This document shows positions 37,098-57,109 of a stretch of 64,000 nt of DNA, piece after piece. The notes under the pieces were generated by a model. The model made no database searches. It was given only the letters and a program-made list of their open reading frames with translations, and was not told the DNA's origin. The DNA lies in contig NZ_SSNL01000004.1 in assembly GCF_007004735.1 (NCBI RefSeq), positions 310,001-374,000 of the forward strand, written 5' to 3'. The first letter of the stretch is position 1; each line of letters opens with the position of its first letter. Both the position numbers and the translations under genes were made by a program. The stretch comes from Salinigranum halophilum. GTDB taxonomy: Archaea; Halobacteriota; Halobacteria; Halobacteriales; Haloferacaceae.

Positions 37098-37406
37098 TCA
37101 GCTGTTGGCCTTCTTGAGCGACGAGAGGCAGTTTCCACAGTAGCCGGCGAAGCCGGGGTTCGGAAGCCCACAGGACGAACAGGTGACGAGGTCCGACTCC
37201 GCGGGCCCCGAGACGGCCCCGCCAGTCAGCACGGCCGCAGGGCCCGGGGCTCCGGAGGGTTGCTCGTCGACTCGCTCCATGATGCGGTCCACCAGCGCGT
37301 CGTCGCGCATCCGGTCGAGCACGCGGACGAACCCGATGAACAGCAGTGAGGGGGCGACGATGCAGAACGCCGCCACGAGTAGTCTGAAGGCAATACTCAG
37401 TTCCAT
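37098..37406 (-). CDS. Zinc-ribbon protein with N-terminal membrane anchor
   Basis: 102 residues. One N-terminal hydrophobic helix (FRLLVAAFCIVAPSLLFIGFV) is followed by a charged region and a C-terminal zinc ribbon, CSSCGLPNPGFAGYCGNC (two CxxC pairs, 11 residues between), then SLKKANS. This type is common in haloarchaea and of unknown function. It is convergent with sucD and divergent from the CBS gene at 37507. Confidence 0.65.
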   Translation of the reverse strand: MELSIAFRLLVAAFCIVAPSLLFIGFVRVLDRMRDDALVDRIMERVDEQPSGAPGPAAVLTGGAVSGPAESDLVTCSSCGLPNPGFAGYCGNCLSSLKKANS

Positions 37407-37506
37407 ACCACGTGCAAGGAACACACGCGTATGGTCTTGTCGGGTTTTCTCACCGCTGATAGCGGGAGGTAGAGGGTTAAGTAGCGTCGTTCTGGATTTC
37501 CTGATA

Positions 37507-37932
37507 ATGCAGGTCCGAGATGTGATGACGGCGGGTTGTGTAACGGTCCCGTCGTCGGCGACGCTGGCCGACTGTGTCACCCGGATGCTCATGGCGGGCA
37601 CGGGGAGTGTCATCGTCGACGACGATGGGCCACTCGGCATCGTGACCGAGAGCGACGTTCTCAGCGCGGCGCAGGACATCGACGAACCACTGTCGGCGAT
37701 TCCTGCCCACGTGGCGATGTCACACCCGGTCGAACGCATCGAACCCACGGCGACGGTCAGGAAGGCGGCCGAGCGGATGCAGACCCTCGACATCAAGAAA
37801 CTGCTCGTCGCCCGCGGGTTCGACCCGGTCGGCGTGGTGACAGTGACCGACCTCGTGTGGCACTTCTCGGACTTCCAGCGCGAGGCCGGCCGACTCGCCC
37901 TCAAAGGCAACGCCTGGGAGCACGGCGAGTAG
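37507..37932 (+). CDS. CBS-domain protein
   Basis: 141 residues with two CBS motifs in tandem: MQVRDVMTAGCVTVPSSATLADCV through GIVTESDVLS, and VAMSHPVERIEPTATVRKAAERM through GVVTVTDLVWHFSDFQRE. The pair forms a Bateman module that binds adenosyl nucleotides and usually senses energy state. No catalytic domain is attached. A GGTTAAGTAG box about 25 bases upstream supports the 37507 start. Confidence 0.85.
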   Translation: MQVRDVMTAGCVTVPSSATLADCVTRMLMAGTGSVIVDDDGPLGIVTESDVLSAAQDIDEPLSAIPAHVAMSHPVERIEPTATVRKAAERMQTLDIKKLLVARGFDPVGVVTVTDLVWHFSDFQREAGRLALKGNAWEHGE

Positions 37933-38114: not shown

Positions 38115-38687
38115 ATGGACCGACTTCGCCGGTCGTTCGACGAAGCGCCGATCATCGAGAAGGAGGGCGGCTACCAGTACGTCGTCCACCCCATCAGCAA
38201 CGGCGTCCCGATGCTTCGCCCCGAACTCCTCCGTGAGGTCGTCGTCGGTGTCATGCGCGTCGCCGACCTCGAACGGGTCGACAAGATCGTCACGCCGGAG
38301 GCGATGGGTATCCACATCTCCACCGCGGTCTCGCTCATGACCGACATCCCCCTCGTCGTCATCCGAAAGCGCCAGTACGGTCTCGCGGGCGAGGTGTCGC
38401 TCCACCAGCAGACCGGCTACTCGGAGTCGGAGATGTACATCAACGACGTCGAGGCGGGCGACCGCGTCCTCGTCCTCGACGACCTCCTCTCGACGGGCGG
38501 GACGCTCGCCGCGGTGACCGAGGCGCTCACCGACATCGGGGCCGACATCGTCGACACGGTCGTCGTCGTCCGGAAGGCCGACACCGACAGCGAGATGGAC
38601 GACAGAGAACACGACGTCGTCTCGCTCATCGACATCGAACTCGTCGACGGCGAGGTCGTCGTCCGTGACGAGTACCGCCGTCAGTAA
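38115..38687 (+). CDS. hpt: Purine phosphoribosyltransferase (hypoxanthine/guanine type)
   Basis: 190 residues. The family N-terminus [26 protein letters not shown], then [34 protein letters not shown], and the PRPP motif [15 protein letters not shown] (residues about 115-129) are present. It salvages purine bases to nucleoside monophosphates using PRPP. It is convergent with the BMP-family binding protein gene of a nucleoside-type ABC transporter, suggesting a shared role in purine uptake and salvage. Confidence 0.88.
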
Positions 38688-38704: not shown

Positions 38705-39859
38705 TCAGTTGTTCGGGACGCTCCCCTCGACGTTGTCGACGTAACTCGACATCTCGCCGAAGAGGGACGCGTCCGAATCGCCCGCGAACGCCGTGTCGGC
38801 CCACACGTCGAGGTCGCCGGCCTCGAGGGCCTCACGCTCGGACTGGACGGTGCTCTTGACCTCGTCGGGGACCGCCGGTCCCCACTCGTCGACGTCGACG
38901 ATACCGTCGGTGAGTCCGCCCCAGTAGGCGTCCGACTCCCACGAACCCTCGTTGACGGCCTGCAGAGTGGGTTCGTAGAACACCTCCCAGTGCCAGATGG
39001 GGGAGGTGAGGTAGTTCTCGCCGGCGAACTCGCCCATCGGGGCGTCGTACCCCGTCGCCCAGATGCCCGCGTCGGCCGCCGCGCGGACCGCGGCGGGCGA
39101 GTCTTGGTGCTGGGCCATCACGTCGACGCCGCCGTCGATGAGCGCCTGTGCGGCCTCGCGTTCTTTCGGCGGGTCGAACCAGGAGTTGACCCACTGCACC
39201 CGGACGGACGCCGACTCGTTCACCGAGGCCGCGCCGGCGGCGTAGGCGTTGATGCCGCGGACGACCTCCGGGATGGGGAACGCCGCGACGTACCCCAGCG
39301 AGTCGGCCTCGGTGACCATCCCGGCGGCGACGCCCGCGAGATAGCGCGCCTCGTACATCCGCCCGAAGTACCGCCCCATGTTGTCGGCGGTCTTGTAGCC
39401 CGCACAGTGTTCGTACAGCGTGTCGGGGTTCTCTTCGGCGACGGCGAGCATCGGGTCCATGTACTCGAAGGTCCCGCCGAAGACGATGTCGTACCCGTTC
39501 ATCGTGTACTCGCGGACGACCCGCTCGGCGTCCGCCGGCGCGACGGCTTCCGAGTAGTCGGTCTCGAGCCAGTCGAACCGCTCGGCGGCCGCCTTTCGAC
39601 CCTCGTTGTGCGCCCACGACCAGCCGAGGTCACCGACCTCGGAGTTGTAGATCCACGCGGCCTTGACCGTCTCCGACCCGCCGCCGGAACCGTCAGCGCC
39701 GCTCGAACTCTCGGTGCTGTCCGAACTCCCCGACCCCTCGGAGCCACCAGTGCCTCCAGAACCGCCGGTGCATCCGGCGAGACCCGCGAGACCGGCGGTG
39801 CCGGCGACGCCGAGAGATTTCAGTACGCTCCGTCTGTCGACCGCGTGTTTCCGAGCCAT
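38705..39859 (-). CDS. BMP-family ABC transporter substrate-binding lipoprotein
   Basis: 384 residues. The N-terminus RRSVLKSLGVAGTAGLAGLAGC is a Tat signal peptide with a lipobox cysteine, followed by a Gly/Ser-rich linker (residues about 35-60), typical of haloarchaeal lipoproteins. The Bmp/Med domain includes IYNSEVGDLGWSWAHNEGR, YDIVFGGTFEYMDPM and GVDVMAQHQDSP. Such proteins deliver nucleosides to an ABC transporter. Its permease/ATPase genes (41765-45471) are on the other strand beyond a flippase gene. They share an upstream motif with this gene. Confidence 0.88.
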   Translation of the reverse strand: MARKHAVDRRSVLKSLGVAGTAGLAGLAGCTGGSGGTGGSEGSGSSDSTESSSGADGSGGGSETVKAAWIYNSEVGDLGWSWAHNEGRKAAAERFDWLETDYSEAVAPADAERVVREYTMNGYDIVFGGTFEYMDPMLAVAEENPDTLYEHCAGYKTADNMGRYFGRMYEARYLAGVAAGMVTEADSLGYVAAFPIPEVVRGINAYAAGAASVNESASVRVQWVNSWFDPPKEREAAQALIDGGVDVMAQHQDSPAAVRAAADAGIWATGYDAPMGEFAGENYLTSPIWHWEVFYEPTLQAVNEGSWESDAYWGGLTDGIVDVDEWGPAVPDEVKSTVQSEREALEAGDLDVWADTAFAGDSDASLFGEMSSYVDNVEGSVPNN

Positions 39860-39929
39860 GGATATGCGTGTTCGTGTACACCGCGACGGACGCCGCGGCG
39901 TTACTGTCGGGAACTCACGCACATAGCTG

Positions 39930-39936
39930 TATAAAT
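39930..39936 (-). promoter_or_regulatory. TATA-like element of the BMP substrate-binding gene
   Basis: On the minus strand ATTTATA lies about 71-77 bases upstream of the ATG at 39859, giving a leader of about 45 bases. The CACAGACGTG motif (39964-39973) ends 27 bases upstream of this box. Confidence 0.5.
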
Positions 39937-39963: not shown

Positions 39964-39973
39964 CACGTCTGTG
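39964..39973 (-). promoter_or_regulatory. CACAGACGTG motif upstream of the BMP substrate-binding gene
   Basis: On the minus strand CACAGACGTG lies 27 bases upstream of the TATA-like box. The same 10-mer occurs twice on the plus strand upstream of the transporter ATPase gene (41633-41642 and 41698-41707), the nearer copy again 27 bases before the TATA-like element. It is a candidate site for a shared activator or repressor. Confidence 0.55.
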
Positions 39974-40041
39974 TAGGGACGGAACACGAACGTGCATCCT
40001 CTCCGATGGCGTCGCGGGCGGCGACGAGCGCGACGGTACGG

Positions 40042-41553
40042 TCAGCCGGAGCGGCCGAACGCGCCCGAGACCACGCGGAGGTTGCCGCGGAGCCCCCACG
40101 AGAACCGCCGGTCGAGGCCGACGAGCAGGACGGCGTACGACGCCCCGCCGACGGCGACCAGGAGGACCAGTTCGACGACGGCGGGGACGCCGGCGACGGA
40201 CGCACGGACGAGGAGCGTGGTGGCAGCCATGCCGACGCTCGCGGTGAACGGGACGGCCACCTCCGCGGCGAGTCGTCGGGGGCCGACGCCGATGAGTCGG
40301 TGCATCAAGAACAGGTCGACCGGGAGCGCCACGAACACGTAGACGCCGGCCACCGCCGCGGCCGTCCCGGTGATACCGAAGGCGGCCGTCGCGGGGACGA
40401 TGACGAGCGCGAGCGCCACGAGGCGGACGGTCCCGACGCGGGTGACGTAGTCCGGTCGGCCGAGCGCCTTCCATATCTGGTGGAACGCCGCCGTCAGCGA
40501 GACGAGCAGGCCGTAGACGGCGAGCAACTGCATCGCACCCGTCGCGGGGAGCCACTGCGGGCCGAGGACGCCCTCGATGAACGCGGGCGCGACGACGACG
40601 ATGCCGACGGCCATGGGGAACGAGACGACGCTCACCAGCTGCATCGTACGGACGAACGTGCGGCGGAGCGCCGCGTCGTCGCCCTGAAGCTTCGCGTAGG
40701 TCGAAAAGAGGACGTTCGAGATGGTCTTCGTGACCTCGGTGGCGGGCGCGCTCGCGGTGCGGAACGCGACCTGGTAGAGCCCGAGCGCCGTCGCGGAGAG
40801 GTACCAGCCGACGAAGACGTCGTCACCCTTGCCGAGGAGGAACGCGAGGCCGTTGTTCGCGGTGATCCACTTGCCGTAGCCGAGCATCTCGGTGGCGAGC
40901 GCGCGGTCGGGGCGGAGGGCTGGGCGGTACGAGTGGAGGAGGTACGACGCGAGCAGCCGTGTCGCCTCACCCGCGAGGTAGCCGAAGACGAGCGCCCAGA
41001 CGCTCCTGAACGCGAGTGCGAACGCGAGCGCGACGCCGAAGTCGACGAACGACCCCGAGAAGCGGTAGACGAACTGCCGGTGGAACTGGAGCTCCTTCAC
41101 GAAGTACAGCGCCGCGGGGTTCCGCAGCCCCGTGATGACCGGGACGAGCGCGATGCCGCGGATGACGTCCGCTGCCCGCGGTTCGCCGAAGACGCCGGCG
41201 ACGACCGGCGCGACGAGGAAGATGAACGCCCCGAGGGCACAGCCGCGGACGACGCTGAGCGTCCACGCGGTGTCGAGGTAGCGGTCGACGTCCTCGTCGG
41301 CGTTGTAGATGAGCGCCTCGTCGAGACCGAGGCGGGTGAGGCGGTTGACCCCGCCGAAGGTGAGCAGTGCGATACCGATGAGCCCGAAGTCGGCGGGGGT
41401 GAGGAGGCGTGCGAGGACGACGAGAACGACCAGTTCGAGCCCCCGGGTGCCGAGGTTGAGCCCGAGTTCCCACGCCCCGGAGCGGACGCTCCGGGTCGCG
41501 AGGTCGCCCTCGGGGAGTAGAACCGAACGGAGAGTGTGGAGGAGACGGCGCAT
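40042..41553 (-). CDS. Polysaccharide/oligosaccharide flippase (MOP superfamily)
   Basis: 503 residues with about 14 hydrophobic segments. The lipopolysaccharide-biosynthesis/Wzx-like family pattern is present: GAWELGLNLGTRGLELVVLVVLARLLTPADFGLIGIA in TM1-2, NNGLAFLLGKGDDVFVGWYLSATALGLYQVAFRTAS in the middle. It likely flips a lipid-linked glycan across the membrane for surface glycosylation. It stands alone between the two parts of the BMP transporter and is not obviously linked to them. Confidence 0.85.
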   Translation of the reverse strand: MRRLLHTLRSVLLPEGDLATRSVRSGAWELGLNLGTRGLELVVLVVLARLLTPADFGLIGIALLTFGGVNRLTRLGLDEALIYNADEDVDRYLDTAWTLSVVRGCALGAFIFLVAPVVAGVFGEPRAADVIRGIALVPVITGLRNPAALYFVKELQFHRQFVYRFSGSFVDFGVALAFALAFRSVWALVFGYLAGEATRLLASYLLHSYRPALRPDRALATEMLGYGKWITANNGLAFLLGKGDDVFVGWYLSATALGLYQVAFRTASAPATEVTKTISNVLFSTYAKLQGDDAALRRTFVRTMQLVSVVSFPMAVGIVVVAPAFIEGVLGPQWLPATGAMQLLAVYGLLVSLTAAFHQIWKALGRPDYVTRVGTVRLVALALVIVPATAAFGITGTAAAVAGVYVFVALPVDLFLMHRLIGVGPRRLAAEVAVPFTASVGMAATTLLVRASVAGVPAVVELVLLVAVGGASYAVLLVGLDRRFSWGLRGNLRVVSGAFGRSG

Positions 41554-41632
41554 CGGAGAGTACCGACAGATACGCGAGAACGGGCATTGTTATGAGGGTC
41601 GTACCCCCCGGTCCGGGTGGCGGTCGGATACG

Positions 41633-41642
41633 CACAGACGTG
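41633..41642 (+). promoter_or_regulatory. CACAGACGTG motif, distal copy upstream of the BMP-type ABC operon
   Basis: Plus-strand CACAGACGTG within a 15-base direct repeat (GCACAGACGTGGATA) at 41632-41646. The second copy of the 15-mer is at 41697-41711, 65 bases downstream. Confidence 0.55.
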
Positions 41643-41697
41643 GATAGTGCTCCCGCGAGGGGACCGGTTCCTCCCGGTTCTGCACCTCCTAACGATG

Positions 41698-41707
41698 CAC
41701 AGACGTG
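41698..41707 (+). promoter_or_regulatory. CACAGACGTG motif, proximal copy upstream of the BMP-type ABC operon
   Basis: Plus-strand copy ending 27 bases before the GATAAA TATA-like box at 41735-41740, the same spacing as at the substrate-binding gene. The ATG at 41765 follows 25 bases after the box, so the operon mRNA is probably leaderless. Confidence 0.55.
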
Positions 41708-41764
41708 GATATTCGCGGACCGGATTCGGAAAGAGATAAACCGCCCCGACAGACACGTCCGTGC

Positions 41765-43399
41765 ATGCCGAGGACAGACGAGGACGCACCGTTCCTCGAG
41801 ATGCGAGGAATCCGGAAGACGTTCCCCGGCGTCGTCGCCAACGACGACGTCGACTTCCGGGTTCGCCGCGGGGAGATACACGGGCTGCTCGGCGAGAACG
41901 GGGCCGGGAAGAGCACGCTGATGAAGGTGCTCTACGGGCTCTACCGCCCCGACGCCGGCGAGGTTCGCCTCGACGGCGAGCGGCTCGACCTCGAGTCGCC
42001 GGCCGACGCCATCGACGCCGGCATCGGGATGGTCCACCAGCACTTCATGCTCGTTCCACGGCTCTCCGTCGTCGAGAACGTCGTCCTGGGCGAACGCGAG
42101 CCTGCGGCGTGGGCACCGGATTCGGGGCCGCTCGGTCGGCTCTCGCGGTGGCTCTCGCTCGGACTCGACGGGCCGCGCCGGGAGGTACGGGCGCTCGCCG
42201 ACGAGTACGGCATCGCCGTCGACCCCGACGCGAAGGTGTGGGAACTCGACGTCGGCCAGCAACAGCGTGTCGAGATACTGAAGGCGCTCTACCGGGACGT
42301 CGACCTCCTCGTGCTCGACGAGCCCACCGCCGTCCTCACGCCGTCGGAGGCACGCGAGGTGTTCGCGACCCTCCGGCGACTCGCCGACGAGGGGCTCTCC
42401 GTCGTCTTCATCACCCACAAGCTCGAGGAGGTGATGGCGGTGACCGACCGCGTGACCGTCCTCCGCGACGGACAGCAGATCGAGACGGTCGACACCGACC
42501 GCGTGACCCGCGCGGACCTCGCCGAGTCGATGGTCGGCCGGGAGGTGCTCTTCTCGGTGGACCGCGAGTCGCGTCGGCCGGGCGAGGCGGTCCTCTCGAC
42601 GTCGGACCTCCGAGCCGAGGACGAACGCGGCGTCACGACGCTCGACGGCGTCGACATCGAGGTCAGGGAGAACGAGGTCGTCGGCGTCGCCGGCGTCAGC
42701 GGGAACGGCCAGCGCGAACTCGCGGAGTGTCTGGTCGGGCTGCGCGAGCCGACCACGGGAGCGGTCGCGGTCGACGGGGACGACCTCACCGGTGCCGGGC
42801 CGAAGGCGTTCATCGACCGCGGGGTCTCGTTCGTCCCCGAGGACCGCCACCGCTACGGTTGTGCGCCCGACCTGAGCGTGATGCACAACGCCGCCGCGAA
42901 GGTCTACCGTGGCGAGGAGTTCGGCAACGCCGGGCTCCTCGACCACGGCCGCGTCCGCGCCTACGCGGAGACGCTCGTCGAGGAGTTCGACGTCCGCGGC
43001 GTCGGCCAGGTCGACGGGGTCGCCGCCGGCGACCTCTCGGGCGGGAACCTCCAGAAGCTCGTGTTGGGCCGCGAACTCCACCGTGACCCACGCGCCCTCG
43101 TCGCCCACCAGCCGACCCGCGGCGTCGACGTCGGTGCCATCGAGTCGATCCGGACGCGCCTTCTCGACCAGCGCGATGCGGGCACCGGCGTCCTCCTCCT
43201 CTCCGAAGACCTCGACGAGCTGTTCGACCTCTCCGACAGGCTCTGCGTGCTGTACGAGGGGCGGGTCGTCTTCGAGACGACGCCCGCCGAGACCACCCCC
43301 GAAGCGGTCGGCCTGTGGATGACCGGCGGCCCGGACGAGACCGACTCGACCGCGCGGCGGGCCGACGCCACACCGGCGGCCGACGGGGGTGAGCGCTGA
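41765..43399 (+). CDS. BMP-type (nucleoside) ABC transporter, double ATPase subunit
   Basis: 544 residues with two ABC cassettes in one chain, like sugar/nucleoside transporters (RbsA type). Cassette 1: Walker A GENGAGKSTLM, signature ELDVGQQQRVEILKAL and Walker B LLVLDEPTAVLTPSE. Cassette 2: degenerate Walker A GVSGNGQRELAE, signature DLSGGNLQKLVLGREL and Walker B-like ALVAHQPTRGVDVG; the missing Lys is usual for this family. It powers uptake with the two permeases behind it, starting directly after its stop. Confidence 0.93.
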   Translation: MPRTDEDAPFLEMRGIRKTFPGVVANDDVDFRVRRGEIHGLLGENGAGKSTLMKVLYGLYRPDAGEVRLDGERLDLESPADAIDAGIGMVHQHFMLVPRLSVVENVVLGEREPAAWAPDSGPLGRLSRWLSLGLDGPRREVRALADEYGIAVDPDAKVWELDVGQQQRVEILKALYRDVDLLVLDEPTAVLTPSEAREVFATLRRLADEGLSVVFITHKLEEVMAVTDRVTVLRDGQQIETVDTDRVTRADLAESMVGREVLFSVDRESRRPGEAVLSTSDLRAEDERGVTTLDGVDIEVRENEVVGVAGVSGNGQRELAECLVGLREPTTGAVAVDGDDLTGAGPKAFIDRGVSFVPEDRHRYGCAPDLSVMHNAAAKVYRGEEFGNAGLLDHGRVRAYAETLVEEFDVRGVGQVDGVAAGDLSGGNLQKLVLGRELHRDPRALVAHQPTRGVDVGAIESIRTRLLDQRDAGTGVLLLSEDLDELFDLSDRLCVLYEGRVVFETTPAETTPEAVGLWMTGGPDETDSTARRADATPAADGGER

Positions 43400-44482
43400 A
43401 TGCGGGTCGAACTCGAAGCGCGGACCGACCAGCCGCGGTGGCTCACCTACGGGACGCCCGTCGTGACCGTCCTCGCCGCGCTCGCCGTCGGTGCCGTGGC
43501 GCTCGTCGCCCTCGGCGTGAACCCCATCGACGCCTACGAGACGATGTTCGTCGGAACGCTCACCTCGACGTTCGGCGTGACGGAGACGCTCGTGAAAGCC
43601 GTCCCGCTCGTCCTCACCGGACTCGCGGTGTACGTCCCCCTGAAGGCGGGGCTGTGGAACATCGGGGCCGAGGGGCAACTGTACATCGGCGCTGTCGTCG
43701 GGACGTGGGTCGGGCTGAACGTCGACGCCGGCTTCCTCGTCCTCGTCCCGCTGGCGCTCTTCGGGGCGGGTCTCGCGGGGGGGCTGTACGGAGCGGTCCC
43801 CGGCTATCTCCGCGCGAGATACGGCGTCAACGAGATCATCGTCTCGCTCATGCTCACCTTCGTCGGCGTCCGCGTGGCGAGCTACCTGGTCCGCGGACCG
43901 ATGCGCGGCGGCGAGGGGAACTTCCCCGTCAGCGCCGTGCTCCCCGACGCCGCGCAGTTGCCCACGCTCGGCGGGACGTCCCTGCACGCGGGCGTGCTGG
44001 TCACGCTCGTCCTCGTCGGCGTGGTCGCCGTCGTGGTCTCTCGAACGCGGACCGGCTTCGAGGTCACCTTCGTCGGCTCGAACGCCGACGCGGCCCGCGG
44101 GATGGGGATGCACACCGCCCGGCTGTACGTGTTCGTCTTCGCCGTCGGCGGCGCGCTTGCCGGGCTCGCCGGGTCGATGGAGATCATGGGCGTCCAAGAA
44201 CGGCTCCGCCCCGAGTTCTCCCCGGGCTACGGCTTCACCGCCATCCCAATCGCGCTGCTCGGGCGTAACGGCGCCGTCCGCGTCCTGCTCGCGGGGCTGT
44301 TCTTCGCGCTGTTGTTCGTGGGCGGCTCGTCGATGGAGGTCGCCTTCGGCGTCCCCGCGGCGCTCGTCGACGTCGTCCAGGCGCTCGTCGTCCTCTTTCT
44401 CATCACCGCGGAGTTCTTCAAACGCTATCGGGTGTCGCTCGTGGTCGGTGAGCCCGTCGTCGGCGGGGGGCCGGAGGTATGA
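43400..44482 (+). CDS. BMP-type ABC transporter permease (first)
   Basis: 360 residues with about 9-10 membrane segments of the BPD_transp_2 family. Characteristic segments: VPLKAGLWNIGAEGQLYIGAVVGTWVG, RYGVNEIIVSLMLTFVGVRVASYLV and PEFSPGYGFTAIPIALLGRNG. It starts immediately after the ATPase stop (TGA-ATG) and overlaps the second permease by four bases. Together they form the membrane channel. Confidence 0.92.
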   Translation: MRVELEARTDQPRWLTYGTPVVTVLAALAVGAVALVALGVNPIDAYETMFVGTLTSTFGVTETLVKAVPLVLTGLAVYVPLKAGLWNIGAEGQLYIGAVVGTWVGLNVDAGFLVLVPLALFGAGLAGGLYGAVPGYLRARYGVNEIIVSLMLTFVGVRVASYLVRGPMRGGEGNFPVSAVLPDAAQLPTLGGTSLHAGVLVTLVLVGVVAVVVSRTRTGFEVTFVGSNADAARGMGMHTARLYVFVFAVGGALAGLAGSMEIMGVQERLRPEFSPGYGFTAIPIALLGRNGAVRVLLAGLFFALLFVGGSSMEVAFGVPAALVDVVQALVVLFLITAEFFKRYRVSLVVGEPVVGGGPEV

Positions 44483-45471
44483 TGGGCTTTCTCGCGGGCG
44501 TCCTCGACGCCACCGTTCGGGCGGCGACACCGCTCATCCTCGCCTCGTTAGGTGAACTCATCTCCGAGCGCGGCGGCGTCCTCAACCTCGGCGTCGAGGG
44601 GATGATGCTCGTCGGCGCGCTGGCCGGGTTCGCCACGACGGTCGTCACGGGCGACCCCTACCTCGGCTTCGCGGTCGGGACGCTCGCCGGCGCGGGTCTC
44701 GCGACGGTCCACGCCGTCCTCTGTGTCTCGTTGAAGGCCGACCAGGTCATCAGCGGCGTGATGCTCACCCTGCTGGGCACGGGCCTGACGACCTACTTCG
44801 GCCAGTCGTGGGTGTCGAACTCCATCGAGGGGATGCCGCAGGTCCTCCTGCCCGTCGTCGGCCCCCTCCTCGTCGACCTGCCGCTGGTCGGCGAGGCGCT
44901 CTTCCGCAACACGCCCACCGACTACCTCGCGGTGGCGCTCGTCCCCGTCGTCTGGTACGTCCTCACGCGGACGAACCTCGGGCTCGAACTCACCGCGGTC
45001 GGAGAGGACCCCGAGACCGCGGACACGATGGGTGTCTCGGTCTTCCGGATGCGCTATCTCGCCGTGCTTGTCGGCGGGGCGTTCGCGGGTGCCGCCGGCG
45101 CGCACCTCTCGGTCGCCTTCTCGAAGCTGTGGGTGACGGGGATGGTCGCCGGCCGGGGCTGGATCGCCATCGCGCTCGTCATCTTCGCCGGCTGGCGACC
45201 GACCCGGGCGTTCGTCGGCGCGTACCTCTTCGGGGGGCTGGAGGCGCTCGCACTCCGCTCGCAGTCGCTCGACGTCTCCGTCGGTGCCGCGTTCCCCGCG
45301 GCCGACGGCGTGAACGGTCTGCTCTCGGTGGTGACCCACCCCATCATCATGGAGACGTACCCGTACCTCGTGACGATCCTCGTCCTCGTCGTGACGAGCC
45401 GCGGCGCACTCGCGAAGCGGGTGGGTGCGCCGACGGCGCTGTTAGAGCCGTACAGTCGCGAAGCCGACTGA
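44479..45471 (+). CDS. BMP-type ABC transporter permease (second)
   Basis: 330 residues. Segments LASLGELISERGGVLNLGVEGMMLVGAL and VIFAGWRPTRAFVGAYLFGGLEAL are typical of YufQ/NupQ-like permeases that pair with a YufP-like partner. The start overlaps the previous gene by four bases. The last gene of the operon; msrA converges on it. Confidence 0.92.
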   Translation: MMGFLAGVLDATVRAATPLILASLGELISERGGVLNLGVEGMMLVGALAGFATTVVTGDPYLGFAVGTLAGAGLATVHAVLCVSLKADQVISGVMLTLLGTGLTTYFGQSWVSNSIEGMPQVLLPVVGPLLVDLPLVGEALFRNTPTDYLAVALVPVVWYVLTRTNLGLELTAVGEDPETADTMGVSVFRMRYLAVLVGGAFAGAAGAHLSVAFSKLWVTGMVAGRGWIAIALVIFAGWRPTRAFVGAYLFGGLEALALRSQSLDVSVGAAFPAADGVNGLLSVVTHPIIMETYPYLVTILVLVVTSRGALAKRVGAPTALLEPYSREAD

Positions 45472-46695: not shown

Positions 46696-47862
46696 TCAGC
46701 CCGAGCCGTCCGTCGACAGTTCGATTCGGTCGTGAATCGTCCCCTCTCTGGTCCGCAGGTGACGCGGCTCGCGGTCGTGCTTCACCGCGAGCACCTCCGA
46801 GACGATGGAGAGGGCGATCTGGTACGGCGAGCCGCCGCCGAGGTCCAGTCCGACCGGCGTGTACAGCCTGTCGAGTTGGGCGTCGGTGAACGTCGTTCCC
46901 TCGTCTTCGAAGTCGTCGAGCATCTCTTCGAACCGCTCGTGCGGACCCATCAGGCCGACGTACGGCACCGGGGTGTCGAGGAGCGCCTCGATGGCGAGGC
47001 GGTCGTCGACGAAGTTGTGCGTCGCGACGACGACGTAGGTGTTCGCGTCGAAGTCGAACTCGTCCGTCATGCGCGCCGGCGAGGTCGACACCACCTCGCT
47101 CGCGGCAGGGAAGCGGTCGGCCTTCGCGGCCGCCCCGCGGAACCCGACGACGGAGACACGGAAATCCGTCTGCGCGCCGAGTTCGGCGATGGGGCCGACG
47201 TCGTGGCCGGTCCCGACGACAGCGAGCTTCGAGGGAGCGGTGAGGCCGTCGACGAACACCGTCACCGACTCCCCGCCGAGTTCGACCGTCACGGCGTCGG
47301 CCTTCCCGAGTGCGGTCAGTTCCGCAGCGACCTCGCGCACCCGTTCGGCCAGGTCCGCGTCGAACCCGTCTCCGAGGTCGAACGTCTCCGTCTGGGGGTC
47401 GTAGTACGCTCTCGCGCCCGCGTGTTCGCCGTCGGTGACGGTCAGGACGCCGATGTCACGCCCCGCCGCGAACGCGTCGACGGCGGGTCGGTACGTCTCG
47501 TCGAGCGGTTCGAGCAAGATGTCGATTCGGCCGTTGCAGCCGACGCCGAGTCCCCAGACGTCGTCGTCGGCCTCGGGCATGAGGTCGTAGTGTTCGACGC
47601 GCGGTTCCCCGGCGGCGAGGACCTCGCTCGCGAGCCCCTGCACCTCGTCTTCCAGACAGCCCGCGGTGATGTGGCCGACGCCCGCGCCGTCTTCGGGGAG
47701 CACCATCTTCGCCCCGGGGCGACGATACGCGCTTCCCTCCACGCGGATGACCGTCGCGAGGACGCCGCGGCGGTCGCTCACCAACAGGTCACGTGCCTGT
47801 GTCAGTACCTCCGTCTCGGGGACGCTCCAGTTCGCGTCCGTCTCACTGCTGTCGTTCGTCAT
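46696..47862 (-). CDS. coxI: XdhC/CoxI family molybdenum-hydroxylase maturation factor
   Basis: 388 residues. The N-terminal XdhC_CoxI domain (about 20-110) has VLATVIRVEGSAYRRPGAKMVLP and GHITAGCLEDEVQG. The C-terminal Rossmann domain has LAVVGTGHDVGPIAELGAQ and VVVATHNFVDDRLAIEALL. XdhC-type proteins bind molybdopterin cofactor and help its sulfuration and insertion into CO dehydrogenase-like enzymes. It is the last gene of the cox operon and overlaps the DUF364 gene by four bases. Name assigned by family and position; CoxF is the alternative paralogue. Confidence 0.88.
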   Translation of the reverse strand: MTNDSSETDANWSVPETEVLTQARDLLVSDRRGVLATVIRVEGSAYRRPGAKMVLPEDGAGVGHITAGCLEDEVQGLASEVLAAGEPRVEHYDLMPEADDDVWGLGVGCNGRIDILLEPLDETYRPAVDAFAAGRDIGVLTVTDGEHAGARAYYDPQTETFDLGDGFDADLAERVREVAAELTALGKADAVTVELGGESVTVFVDGLTAPSKLAVVGTGHDVGPIAELGAQTDFRVSVVGFRGAAAKADRFPAASEVVSTSPARMTDEFDFDANTYVVVATHNFVDDRLAIEALLDTPVPYVGLMGPHERFEEMLDDFEDEGTTFTDAQLDRLYTPVGLDLGGGSPYQIALSIVSEVLAVKHDREPRHLRTREGTIHDRIELSTDGSG

Positions 47863-48686
47863 AGGTCAGTATTGGGTCGCTCGGTTGGTAACTGTAGCCC
47901 CGGAAGCGTCGCGTCGGCCGCGGTGTACACCTTCTGTAACCCCGCATCGTGGAGGGCTGTCCCGCAGTCACCCGCGGCGATGCGCTCGCGAACCCGGTCG
48001 ACGTCTCGCACTCGCGCCCCCGCGACGAGGTCGACACCGCGGTCGAACAGCGGCGTCGGGAGCAGCGAGGCCGTCGCGCCCACGACGACCACGAGCGGCA
48101 CCGCCGCCGCAGTCGCCGCCGTCAGGTACACGTCGATGCCACCGTAGACGAGCGTCGACCCGGTGATGAAGCAGACGTCCGCGTCGGCGAACGCCGCGTC
48201 GGCCTCCGCGGGCGCGAAGAGCGTCGTCGGGACGCGCTCGGGGAGCGATTCGGGGTCGATGCGTTTGGCGTCGCGTTCGACCACGCGGACGGAGACGTCG
48301 CCGAACTTCCTGAACGCGGGGCGGAAGAGGCCGACGGTGGCGACGGTCTCGACGGTGGCGTCCAGCGCCGCCATCGGGTCGCCGACGAGCCACTCGACGT
48401 CCGGTTCCGAGAGCGCGTTGAGCGTCGCGAGTCCGACTGCCCGAGCGACGCTCCCCGGAGGCGCGTCCGTCGCCCGTTGCACGAGGTGTTCGACGGAGCC
48501 GTCGATTCCCGCCACGTCACCGTCACTGGGTGGTCGGTGAGCGACGCCCGCCAGGTCGCCCTCGTCGGGGTGGCGACACGACACGAGAACCGCGCGGCCG
48601 CCGACGGTGACGTGCGGGTCAGTCGCCGCCACAGCGCGCGCCGAGAGCGAATCGCGGACCGCCTCGACGACGGTATCCGTCGACAT
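47859..48686 (-). CDS. DUF364-type putative heavy-metal-chelating Rossmann protein in the cox operon
   Basis: 275 residues from the ATG at 48686 (MSTDTVVEAVRDSL). Its C-terminal half fits the DUF364 (PF04016) Rossmann-like fold: VCFITGSTLVYGGIDVYLTAA, PLVVVVGATASLLPTPLFDRGVDLVAGARV. DUF364 members are linked to Mo/W enzymes or metal chelation, but their biochemical role is unknown. The coupling (stop overlaps the coxI start by four bases, one base after coxE) puts it inside the CO dehydrogenase maturation operon. It is not part of the classical bacterial cox set as I know it. Confidence 0.72.
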   Translation of the reverse strand: MSTDTVVEAVRDSLSARAVAATDPHVTVGGRAVLVSCRHPDEGDLAGVAHRPPSDGDVAGIDGSVEHLVQRATDAPPGSVARAVGLATLNALSEPDVEWLVGDPMAALDATVETVATVGLFRPAFRKFGDVSVRVVERDAKRIDPESLPERVPTTLFAPAEADAAFADADVCFITGSTLVYGGIDVYLTAATAAAVPLVVVVGATASLLPTPLFDRGVDLVAGARVRDVDRVRERIAAGDCGTALHDAGLQKVYTAADATLPGLQLPTERPNTDL

Positions 48687-48687
48687 C

Positions 48688-50004
48688 TCAACTCGACCCC
48701 AGTGCACGGTCTCGGAAGTCGTGTTCGTAGCCGATCGGGCCGTGCGGCCCGTGGCGGTTCACCTGCCGCGCGACCTCCGAGAGGTCTTCGGGGCCGGCGA
48801 GCGCGAAGAGTCCGTCGACGTAGGGGAGCGACGCCGCCATCCCGCGGCACGTCGGTTCGTACTTGGCCGAGGCGGCGAGGGGGTTCAGCCAGAGGACCGC
48901 CCGGGACCGCCGCGAGAGCCACGTCATTCCCCGCTCAAGGTCGGCGACGTCGCCGACGTCGAGGCCGTCGCTCAGGACCAGCGTGACCGTCCGACGGTCG
49001 ACGGCGTCGGGCCAGCGCGTGCGCAGTTCGGTCAGGGCGTGACCGATCCGGGTTCCGCCGCCCCACGCGACTTCGGCGTCTTCGAGCGCGGCGACGGGGT
49101 TCCCCCGCGACGCCGTGAACACGTCCGTCACCTCGCGGACGTCGGTGTCGAAGAAGAACACACGCACGCCGCGACCGTCGGCGACCAGCGTGTCCAGGAA
49201 CTGCAGCAGGAAGCCGCGGTCGACCGTGTCGAGCACGGACCGACTCACGTCGACGAGGACGCAGGTGCGGAACGCGGTCGGCGTGCGCTCGCGGGTCGGC
49301 AGGGAGACGACGGTCCCGCCCGTGCCGACGCTCGACCGTAACGCGCGCCGCGCGTCGACCTGCCGGCCGCCACCGCCGGTCCAGCGCCGCCCCGAAAGCG
49401 TCGCGAGCGCCCGCTCGAACTGGCGGACCGCATCGGCGTCGAGCGGGCGACGCCGCGCCTCCTCGTCCTCGTCGACGTCGGTCCCCGCCCCGCCCGCACT
49501 GTACGTCGAGGCGCGACTCCGCTCCCTGTCTCCGTCGGCCTCCGCTGTGTCGGCGTCGTGGTCGACGAGGCGGCGTTCGGTGACGGTCTCGTCGTCCGCG
49601 CCGTCCCCGCCGCCACCGCCGGGCGCTTCGCCGGTGCTCGCCGCGGCCGACTCGTCGCCCGCGTCCGCCGCACCGTAGAAAGCGCCGCTGCCGGAGCGGT
49701 CACCCACGTCGTCGCTGGTGGCGGTCGCTTCGAGTCCGGTGCGAAGTCGGTACCAGAACTCGGGGAAGTGCGCCTCGAACGTCTCCGAGTCGCGAGCGTC
49801 CGTGACGAGCGTCGCGTGGGTGGCCGCGTAGACGCTGTCGCGGTCGCGGAGCCCGACCGCACACAGCGCCTCGGTGGCCGAGAGCGCGGCGTTCGCCGGA
49901 ATCGAGAGGCCGTTCCGGCGGAGGGTCCGGGCGAACGAAACCACCTCGCCGAGGACGTGGTCGCGGGCGGCGACGAAGTCCGGCGTCTCGTCGAGCGGAC
50001 TCAT
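48688..50004 (-). CDS. coxE: CoxE-like VWA-domain protein
   Basis: 438 residues. The C-terminal VWA domain has a MIDAS motif DVSRS (in CVLVDVSRSVLDTV) and LVLSDGLDVGDV. The N-terminal helical part (about 1-115) is followed by a long acidic, low-complexity linker (about 115-190, Gly/Asp/Glu-rich). CoxE works with the CoxD ATPase in assembling the Mo-Cu centre of CO dehydrogenase, being implicated in copper insertion. It starts two bases after the coxD stop. Confidence 0.88.
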   Translation of the reverse strand: MSPLDETPDFVAARDHVLGEVVSFARTLRRNGLSIPANAALSATEALCAVGLRDRDSVYAATHATLVTDARDSETFEAHFPEFWYRLRTGLEATATSDDVGDRSGSGAFYGAADAGDESAAASTGEAPGGGGGDGADDETVTERRLVDHDADTAEADGDRERSRASTYSAGGAGTDVDEDEEARRRPLDADAVRQFERALATLSGRRWTGGGGRQVDARRALRSSVGTGGTVVSLPTRERTPTAFRTCVLVDVSRSVLDTVDRGFLLQFLDTLVADGRGVRVFFFDTDVREVTDVFTASRGNPVAALEDAEVAWGGGTRIGHALTELRTRWPDAVDRRTVTLVLSDGLDVGDVADLERGMTWLSRRSRAVLWLNPLAASAKYEPTCRGMAASLPYVDGLFALAGPEDLSEVARQVNRHGPHGPIGYEHDFRDRALGSS

Positions 50005-50006
50005 GC

Positions 50007-50987
50007 TCAGCGGTCGGACGTGCCGTCGGCCGACGGTTCGACGGGGCTCTCTGTGCCCGCGGTGGGCGTCTCGTCCCCGTCGGTCGCCTCACGCGCCTCC
50101 CGCGCCGCTCGCTCCAGTCGCTCCAGCAGGGTCGAATCCACCCGCTGGACGTCTTCGACCTCCTTGAGGAGGGTTCCGATGGTGCGTTCGATCTCCGCGG
50201 CGCTGATGTCGGAGTCGTCGCCGGGGGCCCGCAGCTCGGCCACCGCCCGCGCCCAGTCGAGCGTCTCGGCGACGCCGGGCCGCTTGAGAAACGCGTTCTC
50301 GCGGAGTTCGGCGACGATGGCGCACACCTCGGCGGCGACGGTCGCGTCCAGTTGCGGGACCTTCCGCCGGACGATTTCTCGCTCCGTCTCGTAGGAGGGG
50401 GCGTCGACGTGGAGGTACAGACACCGCCGCTTGAGCGCGTCCGAGAGTCCGCGCGTGCGGTTGGAGGTGATGATGACGATGGGTGGTGTCTCCGCCGTGA
50501 CGGTGCCGAACTCGGGGATGGTGACCTGGAAGTCCGAGAGCACCTCCAGGAGGAACGCCTCGAACTCCTCGTCGGCGCGGTCGACCTCGTCGATGAGCAG
50601 GACCGGGGGTGCCTCTCCCTCGTGGGTGAGCGCCCGCAGGAGCGGCCGCTCGAACAGGTACTCCTCGGAGAAGACGCCGGCGTCGGCGCTGTCGCCCGAC
50701 TGCACCGCCAGGAGCTGTTTGGTGTAGTTCCACTCGTAGAGGGTGTTCTCCGCGGCGAGCCCCTCGTAACACTGCAGGCGGATGAGCTCCGTCTCGAAGC
50801 TCTCGGCGAGCACCTTCCCGAGTTCGGTCTTGCCCGACCCGGGCTCTCCCTCGATGAGGAGTGGCTTGCCCAGCCGGAGCGAGAGGTAGACCGTCGTCAC
50901 GAGCGTGTCGTCGGCGACGTAGTCGGCCGCCTCGAACCGCTCGCGGAGGTCGTCCTCGGTCACGGACGAGACGTCGGGCCCGGTCAT
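50007..50987 (-). CDS. coxD: CoxD-like MoxR-family AAA+ ATPase
   Basis: 326 residues. Walker A GEPGSGKT (47-54), Walker B VLLIDEVDRADEEFEAF, sensor 1 IVIITSNRTRGLSDALKRRC and arginine-finger region are all present, as in MoxR ATPases. CoxD is required to convert the CO dehydrogenase active site to its sulfurated form in Oligotropha. The C-terminal 40 residues are Thr/Glu/Ser-rich and probably disordered. It overlaps the coxF/YHS stop by four bases. Confidence 0.9.
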   Translation of the reverse strand: MTGPDVSSVTEDDLRERFEAADYVADDTLVTTVYLSLRLGKPLLIEGEPGSGKTELGKVLAESFETELIRLQCYEGLAAENTLYEWNYTKQLLAVQSGDSADAGVFSEEYLFERPLLRALTHEGEAPPVLLIDEVDRADEEFEAFLLEVLSDFQVTIPEFGTVTAETPPIVIITSNRTRGLSDALKRRCLYLHVDAPSYETEREIVRRKVPQLDATVAAEVCAIVAELRENAFLKRPGVAETLDWARAVAELRAPGDDSDISAAEIERTIGTLLKEVEDVQRVDSTLLERLERAAREAREATDGDETPTAGTESPVEPSADGTSDR

Positions 50988-52123
50988 GGTTCGACACGCT
51001 CCAGGAACCGCGCGGGGTCGTCGACGAACGCCTCCTGACAGCCGACGCCGCAGAAGTGGTAGGTCGTCCCCTCGTGGGTGGCGGTCGCCGCCGCCTCGCC
51101 GACGACGACGTCCATCCCGCAGACGGGGTCGGTGGCGACCGTCGCGTCCACCTCGCCGTCGTCCTCGTCGCCCGCGTCGCCCGTCTCGCCTCCGACCGCC
51201 CCGTTCGCGACGGTGGCCGAGGCGTCGGCGTCGACAGCCGAGGCAGTGCCCTGCGAGACGTCGGCAACCGCACCGTCACGCCGGACGGCGACGAGCTCCG
51301 CGAGGACGCTCACACCGACCTCTTCGGGCGTTCGTGCACCGATGTCGAGCCCCGCGGGCGAGGTGACGGCGGCGCGGACCGCGTCGACGTCGCGTCCGGT
51401 CCGGTCGGCGACGCGCTCACAGAGTTCGTCCGCGCGGCGGCGGCTGGCGACGAGACCGACGTACGGGACGGCCGAGGCCAGGGCCGCCTCGACGGCGACG
51501 TCGTCGGTCGCACCCATCGACGCGGCGACGACCCAGGTCGCCCCGCGGAGTTCCGCGGCGAGGGCGTCGACGTCGTCGGTCGCGGTGTGGGTGGTGTCGG
51601 CACCGGGGAGGTCGCTCCCCGCCGGGACGACGGCCGTCACCTCGAACGAGAGTTCGCTCGCGAGGCGAACGACGGCACGCGCGATGGGTGAGTCGCCGAC
51701 GACGACGAGTCGCGCCGGCGACGTCACCGGCTCGATGAACAGTTCGAGCGTCCCCTGGCTGTGACAGGCCATCGGGAACGCCTCCAGCCCGGGCCTGTCG
51801 ACCGACGCGGGGTCGGGCGCGATGCCGACGAGCTTCGGCTCGCCCGTCTCCAGCGCCGACCGAGCCTCGCGGATAGCGACCGACTGGGCGCAGGCGACGC
51901 CACCGATCCACCCCAGGAGTTCCCCGTCGGGCGTGACGACGGCGCGGTCGCCGACGTGCGCGGACACCGGCGGCTCGCGGCGGACGACGGTCACCCGCGC
52001 GAACGGGCGACCCTGTTCGGTGTACTGGCGTGCGACTCTGTCGACGGTCTCCGGGGAGGCGGCGGCGTCCCGCGCGTAGCCGCCCTCGTCCGTTTCGGTC
52101 TCTGCGTCGGTGTCGTCTGTCAT
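50984..52123 (-). CDS. coxF: XdhC/CoxF-like protein fused to a C-terminal YHS metal-binding domain
   Basis: 379 residues. The N-terminal XdhC_CoxI domain (GWIGGVACAQSVAIREA) and Rossmann domain (RLVVVGDSPIARAVVRLA; WVVAASMGATDDV) are followed by an acidic linker (about 285-328). A YHS domain then spans about 329-379: DPVCGMDVVVGEAA, THEGTTYHFCGVGC and FVDDPARFLE. YHS domains occur in copper ATPases and bind soft metals through these Cys residues. CoxF is thought to help put Cu into the Mo-S-Cu site, so the fusion suggests a copper-delivery module. Direct function is inference. A 14-bp tandem repeat lies in its leader. Confidence 0.85.
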   Translation of the reverse strand: MTDDTDAETETDEGGYARDAAASPETVDRVARQYTEQGRPFARVTVVRREPPVSAHVGDRAVVTPDGELLGWIGGVACAQSVAIREARSALETGEPKLVGIAPDPASVDRPGLEAFPMACHSQGTLELFIEPVTSPARLVVVGDSPIARAVVRLASELSFEVTAVVPAGSDLPGADTTHTATDDVDALAAELRGATWVVAASMGATDDVAVEAALASAVPYVGLVASRRRADELCERVADRTGRDVDAVRAAVTSPAGLDIGARTPEEVGVSVLAELVAVRRDGAVADVSQGTASAVDADASATVANGAVGGETGDAGDEDDGEVDATVATDPVCGMDVVVGEAAATATHEGTTYHFCGVGCQEAFVDDPARFLERVEP

Positions 52124-52128
52124 CTGGT

Positions 52129-52156
52129 GGCTGGTGGTTGGCGGCTGGTGGTTGGT
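52129..52156. repeat. Tandem 14-bp repeat between coxL and coxF
   Basis: Two copies of the unit GGCTGGTGGTTGG(C/T) at 52129-52142 and 52143-52156, directly before the coxF start. In mRNA sense it is a C/A-rich CCAACCACCAGCC track without a Shine-Dalgarno-like purine stretch. Probably slippage-derived; an effect on translation is only a possibility. Confidence 0.6.
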
Positions 52157-52214
52157 GGCGTCGATGTGTTCGTCGCGTCGCGGATGTCGGGACCCCCCGA
52201 CACCCCGGACGCGT

Positions 52215-54694
<2,480 letters not shown>

Positions 54695-54698
<4 letters not shown>

Positions 54699-55315
54699 CG
54701 GTCGTCACCTCCGACGTCGACGTCACAGCCACAGCCAGCGCCACAGTCGAACTCGACACCGCCGTCCGCGGCGGCCTCCTGGTCGCCGGGGTGTTCGACG
54801 GGCGACTCTGGGGGTTCGCGGTCGTTGAGCACGTCCGCCGCGTACTGGATGGACTTGACGATGTTCTGATAGCCGGTGCAGCGACAGAGGTTGCCGCTGA
54901 TGTTCTCTCTGATCTCGGCCTCCGTCGGGTCCAAGTTCTTGTCGAGCAGCGCCTTCCCCGCCATGATCATCCCGGGGGTGCAGTAGCCGCACTGGAGGCC
55001 GTGCATCTGGTGGAAGCCCTCCTGAATCGGGTGGAGGTCGTCGGAACGACCCATCCCCGCCTCGGGGAGTTTGTCCATGCCCTCGACGGTGGTCATGTCA
55101 CTGCCGTCCGCCTGGACGGCGAACATGAGACACGACTTGACGGCCTCGCCGTCCTTGTAGACGGTGCAGGCGCCACAGTTGCCCGTGTCGCAGCCGATGT
55201 GTGTGCCGGTGAGGTCGAGGTCCTCGCGGATGGCGTGGACCAGGAGCCGCCGGGGCTCGACGCTCAGTTCCCGTTCGGTGCCGTTGACGGTGATGGTGAT
55301 GTCCTTCTTGCTCAT
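54695..55315 (-). CDS. coxS: CO dehydrogenase small subunit (two [2Fe-2S] clusters) with Cys-rich C-terminal tail
   Basis: 206 residues from the ATG at 55315. The plant-type cluster uses Cys42, 47, 50 and 62 ([12 protein letters not shown] ... SC). The second cluster uses Cys109, 112, 144 and 146 (LQCGYCTPG ... LCRCTGYQ). These relay electrons from the Mo site to FAD in CoxM. Unlike typical CoxS (about 160-170 residues) it has an added tail of about 40 residues, acidic, with Cys191, Cys195 and Cys197 ([11 protein letters not shown]). The tail may bind a metal. It begins one base after the coxM stop. Confidence 0.95.
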
Positions 55316-55316
55316 G

Positions 55317-56177
55317 TTATCTCGCACGCTCCACGGCGGACGCGAGGGCTCTCTGGGTCAGTACCCGGGTCATGTTCTCCTTGTAGTCGGCGCTCCCGTG
55401 TTCGTCTGACTCGGGGTGAGCCGTCTCCGCCGCGGCCTCGCCCGCCCGTTTGAACAGGTCACCAGAGGGCGTCTCGTCGACGAGAATCTCCTCGGCGTCC
55501 GGGACGCCGATGTTGGTGATGTCGACGGCCGTGAGCGCGACGCCGGCGTCGGTGATGACGCCGTCTTCGAGGACGACGCGGGCGGCGACCCCGACCATCG
55601 CGTAGTCGCCGACCTTGCGCTTCAGCTTGTGGTAGGCGCTCCCCTCGTTCTCGGTGGGGACGGGGACGCGAAGCTCCGTGATGAGTTCCGTCTCGTCGAG
55701 CATGTTGTCGTACGGGAGGAGGAAGAACTCGTCCGCAGGGATGGTCCGTTCGCCGTCGGGTCCGTTGGCGACGACTTCGCCGTCGTGTGCGAGGAGGACC
55801 GTGCCCCAGTCACCCTTCGGGTCGGACTGGGCAACACTGCCGACGACGGTTCCGCGGTTGCGAATCTGCGGGTCCGCGACCAGCGGGGCGGCGTCGAAGA
55901 AGCTCCCGTACGTCTCGGCGATGAGGTCGGACTCCTCGATATCGACGTGTCGACAGAGCGCGCCGATGCGGAGGTGCCCGTCCGACTCTTCTAAGAAGTC
56001 GAGGTCAGCGATGCGGTTCAGGTCGATGACGGTCTCCGGACGGGCGAGGCGGAAACGCATCATCGGAATGAGGCTCTGTCCGCCCGCGAGGATGGCCGGT
56101 TCGTCCAGGCTGCCGAGGAGGCTCACCGCCTCGTCGAGTGTCGTCGGTTCGTGGTGTTCGAATTGGGCTGCTTTCAT
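55317..56177 (-). CDS. coxM: CO dehydrogenase medium (FAD-binding) subunit
   Basis: 286 residues. FAD-binding motif AGGQS (31-35) matches AGGHS of bacterial CoxM. The second FAD motif is TVVGS (110-114) where bacterial CoxM has TIGGN, so the third glycine is a valine here. A CoxM C-terminal domain follows. It passes electrons from the Fe-S clusters to the respiratory chain. It starts 12 bases after the coxG stop. Confidence 0.93.
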
Positions 56178-56189
56178 GATCGGTGTGGT

Positions 56190-56780
56190 TCAGAGAAGTC
56201 CGCTGAGTCGGTCGCGGATGCCGCTCGACTTCTCGCTCTCTTCGAAGCCGGTCATCTGCTTCTGGATGTTCTTGAAGAAGTTCGAGACGATCTTGTCGGC
56301 GACGGGGTTCATCACCCGCCCGCCGAGTTGGGCGATGCGCCCGGAGACGTCCGCCTCGGTCCCCCACTTGACGACCGAACCGGTCTCTGTCTCCTGGATG
56401 TCCATCCACGACTCCATCTCGAAACTACTGTTCGAGGCGTCGCCGCCGCCCGTCGCGACCATCTTCGGGAACGTGCGCTCCTCGATGGTGACGCGCGTCT
56501 CGAATCGCGGCTTGACGCTACCGACGCCGACCTGCATCAGCGCGGCGTAGACACCACCCTCGACGAACGCGCGCTCCGCGACGACGTCCGGGTTCGCGTC
56601 CGGGAGTGTCTCGATGTCCTCCTCGGGCTCGTAATCGTCGAAGTTGAAATCGTCGTCTTCGATACGCGTGATGTAGCGACACCCCTTGAGGGCGTCGCGT
56701 ACTGCGATTGGGTCCGAGAGAACGATCCACGCGTCCTCCGGCGATACACCTTCCAGCTCGAATTCACCACTGAACTCCAT
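56190..56780 (-). CDS. coxG: CoxG-like SRPBCC-fold protein
   Basis: 196 residues from the ATG at 56780 (MEFSGEFELEGVSPEDAWIVLSDP). SRPBCC/CoxG features are the N-terminal strand, ALKGCRYITRIED, and near the end GTEADVSGRIAQLGGRVMNPVADKIVSNFFKNI, with an amphipathic C-terminal helix. CoxG is implicated in recruiting CO dehydrogenase to the cytoplasmic membrane. It is the first gene of the operon. An insertion of acidic residues (about 43-62, EDDDFNFDDYEPEED) is seen. Confidence 0.9.
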   Translation of the reverse strand: MEFSGEFELEGVSPEDAWIVLSDPIAVRDALKGCRYITRIEDDDFNFDDYEPEEDIETLPDANPDVVAERAFVEGGVYAALMQVGVGSVKPRFETRVTIEERTFPKMVATGGGDASNSSFEMESWMDIQETETGSVVKWGTEADVSGRIAQLGGRVMNPVADKIVSNFFKNIQKQMTGFEESEKSSGIRDRLSGLL

Positions 56781-56810
56781 TTTTGTACTAGCCCCTATGC
56801 GAGTGCTAAG

Positions 56811-56848
56811 ACTCGTGCGAGTGACTCTCACCCAATTGCATAAACGTT
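56811..56848 (-). promoter_or_regulatory. cox operon promoter with palindrome over the expected start
   Basis: GTTTATGCA on the minus strand (complement of 56837-56845) is the best TATA-like element. Transcription would start near 56815, giving a leader of about 35 bases. The perfect 12-base palindrome ACTCGTGCGAGT (56811-56822) lies over the expected start and could be an operator, for example for the AbrB-type protein encoded just upstream. Position-based inference only. Confidence 0.45.
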
Positions 56849-56947
56849 ACTGAAGAACGGAGGGAACACACGTCGTCTCGGGACTGTGTCGGGGGTGTCT
56901 CGCCGACAGAACGTGGAACGAGGCGGGGAAGACACCGGTTCGCCGGG

Positions 56948-57109
56948 TCAGTCGGCGGCCGAGGGGCCGGCTTTGCGCACGATGACGTGCCCGTCCTCGA
57001 CGTGCCACTCGACACGGTCACCCTCGCCCACGTCGAGGAAGTTCCGGACCGGCTTGGGGATGGTCGTGAGATTCTTCTCCGAGACCTTGGTGTCCGCTAG
57101 CATTCCCAT
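56948..57109 (-). CDS. Small AbrB/SpoVT-type DNA-binding protein upstream of cox
   Basis: 53 residues, below usual size cut-offs. The sequence begins MGMLADTKVSEKNLTTIPKP and includes VRNFLDVGEGDRVEWHVEDGHVIVRK, the swapped-hairpin AbrB/MazE fold. Archaeal AbrB-like proteins are either regulators or antitoxins. No toxin gene is next to it. It lies 168 bases ahead of coxG in the same direction, separated by the cox promoter, so a role in controlling the cox operon is a reasonable guess. Confidence 0.82.
   Translation of the reverse strand: MGMLADTKVSEKNLTTIPKPVRNFLDVGEGDRVEWHVEDGHVIVRKAGPSAAD

Follow-up and report, generated by a model that had tools for sequence, protein, structure and literature searches.

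A BMP (PnrA-like) ABC transporter is encoded in two separate halves in the window, which is the whole 64-kb stretch of DNA analysed here: a substrate-binding lipoprotein gene on the minus strand and, beyond a flippase gene, an ATPase gene followed by two permease genes on the plus strand. The class assignment rests on a PF02608 protein above the cut-off together with an ABC ATPase and two permeases. The locus resembles other PnrA/BMP-type ABC transporters in its PF02608 protein, double ABC ATPase and two BPD_transp_2 permeases, but differs from them in that the binding-protein gene is a separate transcription unit, cut off by the flippase gene, whose presence between the two units had been read correctly in the initial annotation (Pfam Polysacc_synt_3). 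The genes, promoter elements and putative operator sites are listed below; all start codons and TATA boxes given are predictions, and PWM stands for the score with the weight matrix described further on.

38115..38687, plus strand: hypoxanthine/guanine phosphoribosyltransferase (HPT) gene (NF040646, 232 bits, cut-off 200)
38705..39860 (start approximate), minus strand: BMP/PnrA-like substrate-binding lipoprotein gene (PF02608, 173.4 bits)
39930..39936, minus strand: ATTTATA, the predicted TATA-like box for the BMP gene
39964..39973, minus strand: putative operator site 1 (BMP promoter), CACAGACGTG, 28 bases before TTTATA; PWM 16.5
39985..39994, plus strand: putative operator site 2, CACGAACGTG, its centre 21 bp away from that of site 1; PWM 16.7
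40042..41553, minus strand: flippase gene parting the transporter halves (PF13440)
41633..41642, plus strand: putative operator site 3, CACAGACGTGGATA; PWM 14.5, and 15.7 on the other strand
41698..41707, plus strand: putative operator site 4, CACAGACGTGGATA; PWM 14.5
41735..41740, plus strand: weak predicted TATA-like box (GATAAA), about 30 bp upstream of the ATG, a distance that would suit a leaderless transcript
41754..41763, plus strand: putative operator site 5, CACGTCCGTG, ending one base before the ATPase start codon; PWM 15.2
41765..43399, plus strand: double-ABC ATPase gene (PF00005, 151.4 bits)
43400..44482, plus strand: permease 1 (BPD_transp_2, PF02653)
44479..45471, plus strand: permease 2 (BPD_transp_2, PF02653)

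Judging from the transporter family and the neighbouring genes, the transported substrate would be purine nucleosides. The HPT gene is convergent with the adjoining BMP gene, and no operator was seen in the stretch upstream of it. In G165, a relative whose BMP protein is 62% identical, uricase, OHCU decarboxylase and amidohydrolases are encoded beside the same transporter. The ORFs beside uricase at two loci (L045 and L206) were considered as a shared gene and set aside; they had no Pfam match and were judged from their position to be the antisense of uricase. Downstream of the transporter, positions 46696-59624 of the window hold a Form I aerobic CO dehydrogenase cluster, with coxL over the TIGR02416 cut-off and an AYRCSFR motif, and with XdhC-like factors, CoxE, CoxG, an AAA ATPase and MoeA/MobA nearby. 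The molybdenum-enzyme part of this cluster (46696-56831) had been considered as xanthine dehydrogenase; its TIGR02416 score (1235.7 bits, cut-off 991.15) and the AYRCSFR motif identify it as aerobic CO dehydrogenase, and it gives purine use no support.

The initial annotation had placed the 10-mer CACAGACGTG at 39964-39973 on the minus strand and at 41633-41642 and 41698-41707, and had suggested one regulator for both transporter units. These coordinates and strands are all right, and the three are the only exact copies in the 64-kb window, all of them in the two transporter promoters, compared with 0.19 expected; none of 100 shuffled windows contained at least three. The 10-mer is an imperfect form of the inverted repeat CAC-N4-GTG, of which two further copies, at 39985-39994 and 41754-41763, had been missed. 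Within 8 kb around the locus this repeat occurs five times (39964, 39985, 41633, 41698 and 41754), each time in one of the two promoter regions. Over the whole window it is not enriched (19 copies versus 20.2 expected), and 5 of the 19 fall in the approximately 390 bp of the two promoters. Only a spacer of 4 is enriched there, as the other spacers (0-3 and 5-12) gave no copies except one at spacer 11, and 20,000 first-order simulations of the two promoter regions yielded a mean of 0.18 copies, with none containing five. The spacing of 27 bases to the TATA-like box, said in the initial annotation to be identical in the two units, holds for the ATPase unit, where the first base of site 4 lies 67 bp before the ATG and the site 27 bases before GATAAA; it is one base off for the BMP unit. 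Across the genome (4.2 Mb, 11 contigs) the 10-mer has 13 copies, and nine of the ten outside the locus lie within predicted genes, while the flanked 14-mer YRCACAGACGTGKA finds perfect matches only at these three sites of the transporter locus. The concern that the motif might be frequent at random places thus applies in part to the bare 10-mer, but not to the extended motif or to the five-site array.

The degenerate pattern CACRRACGTG matches all five promoter sites and has 78 copies in the genome, only 16 of which are intergenic, indicating that the short pattern alone is a poor predictor; gene calls for the intergenic counts came from a GC3-based script, and the count takes the window copies at 39985 and 41754 as intergenic and that at 54608 as lying in a gene. 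The 16 intergenic copies comprise the five transporter sites, one copy each upstream of purK and purL, and nine further ones in the vicinity of genes that include ABC binding proteins, nicotinate phosphoribosyltransferase and a PadR/DUF7344 pair. The purL site of this genome has 13 of 15 bases in common with site 3, and its guaB gene is preceded by CACGACCGTG, which CACRRACGTG does not cover.

The same element was found before purine genes of other haloarchaea, a label based on gene content, kinship labels and named hits such as Natronomonas. The purK, guaB and purL loci compared were the best 30 of 112, 111 and 112 genomes with a match, respectively, plus L251 and L287, and are not a random sample. 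The 30 purL regions contained 23 copies with a spacer of 4 versus 0-5 with other spacers (shuffle mean 2.7, maximum 9 in 500 shuffles), and a copy with its first base at -54/-53 was present in 20 of them, or in 19 of 29 when the window genome is left aside, representing seven families by kinship. This purL outcome had been predicted in writing beforehand, at a time when the purL site of the window genome was already known. In the 31 purK upstream regions of 250 bp there were 17 spacer-4 copies versus 0-7 at other spacers, and a copy lay at -67 to -69 in 11 of the 30 regions from other genomes (the L251 site is at -67, counted from a GTG start). For guaB, 31 regions gave 14 spacer-4 copies versus 2-5, and 10 of the 31 had a copy at -52 and/or -94/-95; in genome G329 (locus L287) a pair of copies precedes this gene, which encodes IMP dehydrogenase. 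Exact copies of CACAGACGTG stand before purL of G203 (L417) and before guaB of both G169 (L384) and G329. The repeat was absent from the typical positions in 10 of 30 purL, 18 of 31 purK and 21 of 31 guaB regions, and neither the purK and guaB stretches of G165 nor the window genome's second IMPDH-like gene gave a PWM hit of at least 11. In a ranking of 832 gapped inverted trinucleotides, CAC-N4-GTG came first for purK and sixth for both purL and guaB; before the latter two genes, other conserved promoter sequence outscores the repeat, for example CTG-N6-CAG before purL.

The sites also hold regular positions with respect to the predicted promoter elements. Those of purL end 12-18 bases, mostly 14, upstream of the best TATA-like hexamer and directly precede a GGAAA-like BRE; those of purK mostly end 25-26 bases upstream of the hexamer (27 with CTTATG as the box). 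Sites 1 and 4 lie 27-28 bases upstream of TATA, compared with 25-27 before purK, so that the spacing in the BMP and ATPase units is of the purK type; site 5 is found on the downstream side of the TATA-like box. The purL type of the element is represented by CACGTTCGTGCATA and the transporter type by CACAGACGTGGATA; sites 1, 3 and 4 have A rather than G at position 4, as do 4 of 45 reference sites.

A weight matrix of 14 bases was built from 44 sites before purL, purK and guaB, all taken from genomes other than that of the window. When the 64 kb were scored with it, the six top rows were the five transporter sites, with site 3 appearing on each strand, followed by a hit at 59246 inside a gene. 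The training sites had been picked as CAC-N4-GTG, and six fixed bases are therefore built into the matrix; what sets the five sites apart from the 14 other CAC-N4-GTG copies is an inner G/C preference and an A four bases after the repeat. The suggestion that one regulator serves both units is well supported, and the evidence reaches beyond it: the transporter sites represent the same element as the inverted repeat that haloarchaea carry at conserved positions upstream of purL, purK and guaB. On these sequence grounds, the motif is very probably the operator of a haloarchaeal purine regulon that includes the BMP (PnrA-like) transporter.

Some other intergenic copies in the window genome deserve mention. 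On contig C8 (L328, 1473-1482), TACACGTTCGTGCATA is flanked by a PadR-like gene and a DUF7344 HTH gene; its PWM score of 22.7 is the best of ten intergenic loci rescored, and the PadR-like/DUF7344 pair is a candidate regulator or target. The repeat also occurs shortly before two ABC binding-protein genes, one of the Peripla_BP_6 (L249, 1501-1510) and one of the Peripla_BP_4 type (L313, 1456-1465), which are possible further members of the regulon.

Twenty loci were fetched around the closest relatives of the BMP gene. In all 19 that hold both genes, BMP and ATPase are divergent neighbours across a short gap, and the flippase is absent from between them, which suggests that a single shared divergent promoter region is likely the ancestral form, later split by the flippase; in more distant relatives the BMP gene often lies behind permeases. 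Conservation of the operator before the relatives' own transporters is poor, and the BMP family as a whole was not found to share the motif. Only 5 of 86 BMP and ATPase upstream regions, from 4 loci, reached a PWM score of at least 11.5, and a spacer of 4 was not enriched in these regions as a set. In the shared promoter region of G165 there are two near copies, ACAGACGTG, which flank the BMP TATA box and of which one is near the expected transcription start; both score below 11.5. The remaining relatives checked had no copy or weak single hits in their BMP and ATPase upstream regions; L049 has a single hit. The outward pair CACGTCTGT-N12-42-ACRRACGTG was found in 5 of 392 genomes, namely in the window promoter, in the G165 promoter and in three cases within predicted genes; as this pattern was composed after both known cases had been seen, its rarity is supporting rather than independent evidence. 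Inward pairs across the 392 genomes lay inside a predicted gene in 7 of 11 cases, and this search yielded the guaB lead in G329.

In genus g46 (L188-L201), many relatives have a tandem pair of BMP genes following the same divergent promoter, and at most of these loci the intergenic region has another conserved block, GTCCGGCATTTCCCGTTCTGGACGGCG with close variants, before the ATPase gene. Given this different block, another regulator may serve those loci.

According to two studies of archaeal TrmB-type regulators (PMC4158304 and PMC10817205), sites upstream of BRE/TATA activate and downstream sites repress. By this comparison the sites before purL, purK and guaB and sites 1-4 suggest activation, while site 5 suggests blocking, and activation by the upstream sites seems to us the somewhat better bet. 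A variant of the same explanation, in which the regulon is real and its regulator is a repressor acting when purines are plentiful, is possible though rather doubtful, and the confidence placed in the two overlaps. A single base separates site 5 from the ATPase start codon, one G165 copy is near the expected transcription start, and bacterial PurR represses (PMC3794607), all of which would fit a repressor; the conserved purL, purK and guaB sites, however, lie in what is the activation position for TrmB-type regulators.

It is improbable that a local regulator specific to this transporter binds CACAGACGTG and that the likeness to purine promoters is coincidental. Such a regulator would agree with the confinement of the exact 14-mer to the transporter locus within the genome and with the absence of the motif from most orthologous transporter promoters. 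However, the five sites score highest with a matrix derived from other genomes' purine promoters, the spacing to TATA is nearly that of purK, the exact 10-mer precedes purL and guaB elsewhere, purL of the window genome matches site 3 at 13 of 15 bases, and the neighbouring genes that were tested yielded no recognisable transcription factor. Action of TrmB, the known haloarchaeal metabolic regulator, through these sites is very unlikely. Todor et al. 2013 (PMC3794607) report that TrmB affects purine gene levels in Halobacterium, and the TrmB-type regulators H. salinarum VNG1451C, Tgr and TrmBL1 share with our case a palindromic site upstream of BRE/TATA (PMC4158304), but the reported motif TACT-N7-8-GAGTA differs and has 0 matches in the window, and Todor et al. 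infer that Halobacterium must have a TrmB-independent regulator for making purines. That the repeats arose by chance in GC-rich DNA is scarcely credible. The 13 genomic copies of the 10-mer and the lack of overall CAC-N4-GTG enrichment in the window might speak for it; against it stand the clustering in 390 bp, the spacer specificity, the fixed positions before three genes across many families and the purL result predicted beforehand.

With Pfam, no dedicated regulator was recognised in the tested window genes next to the locus, nor in most neighbouring genes picked in the relatives' loci. An HTH_10/BAT protein near L204 was seen at one locus only. Dismissed was the CBS protein at 37183-37932, whose first approximately 100 residues have no known domain and whose likeness to a CBS protein of G165 is weak (E 0.006). 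A small winged-helix protein encoded near guaB at four loci (among them L360, 1174-1452), from 4 genomes belonging to one family, is weakly CggR_N-like (27.3 bits, cut-off 30) and is a candidate purine regulator.

Under the purine-regulon explanation, one protein would bind all sites, with an operator consensus of the inverted repeat CACG-NN-CGTG followed by CAYA and with CACRRACGTG variants at the transporter. Its upstream sites would activate, as with archaeal TrmB-type regulators, and site 5, next to the start codon, could act as a block to transcription; a ligand of the regulator is presumed. Each half of the transporter would be served by its own operators on either side of the flippase gene, where the closest relatives share one divergent promoter region, and the transporter and purine synthesis are probably under the joint control of this putative common regulator. 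Bacterial purine regulons, under the LacI-type PurR of E. coli or the phosphoribosyltransferase-type PurR of Bacillus, likewise have one operator common to purine-synthesis and uptake genes. They differ from the proposed regulon in operator sequence and in that the conserved haloarchaeal sites lie upstream of an archaeal BRE/TATA.

In the openly licensed literature we found no paper naming this operator; papers containing the bare 10-mer were, among the matches listed, unrelated by title, and the available passages of Brown et al. 2011 (PMC3261824) describe no such operator. Those of Todor et al. 2013 state that a PurR homologue was not found in H. salinarum. We consider it likely that CACGNNCGTG serves as the operator for a distinct purine regulator general to haloarchaea, being a conserved activator-type site immediately upstream of BRE/TATA before purL, purK and guaB, that individual species have recruited purine-uptake transporters to this regulon, and that the cognate protein is the TrmB-independent regulator inferred in Halobacterium. 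A defined operator at fixed positions before purL, purK and guaB in several families would be a direct bait for this missing protein. It would make the question of the haloarchaeal purine regulator testable, and would assign a physiological role to the BMP transporter encoded in this genome.
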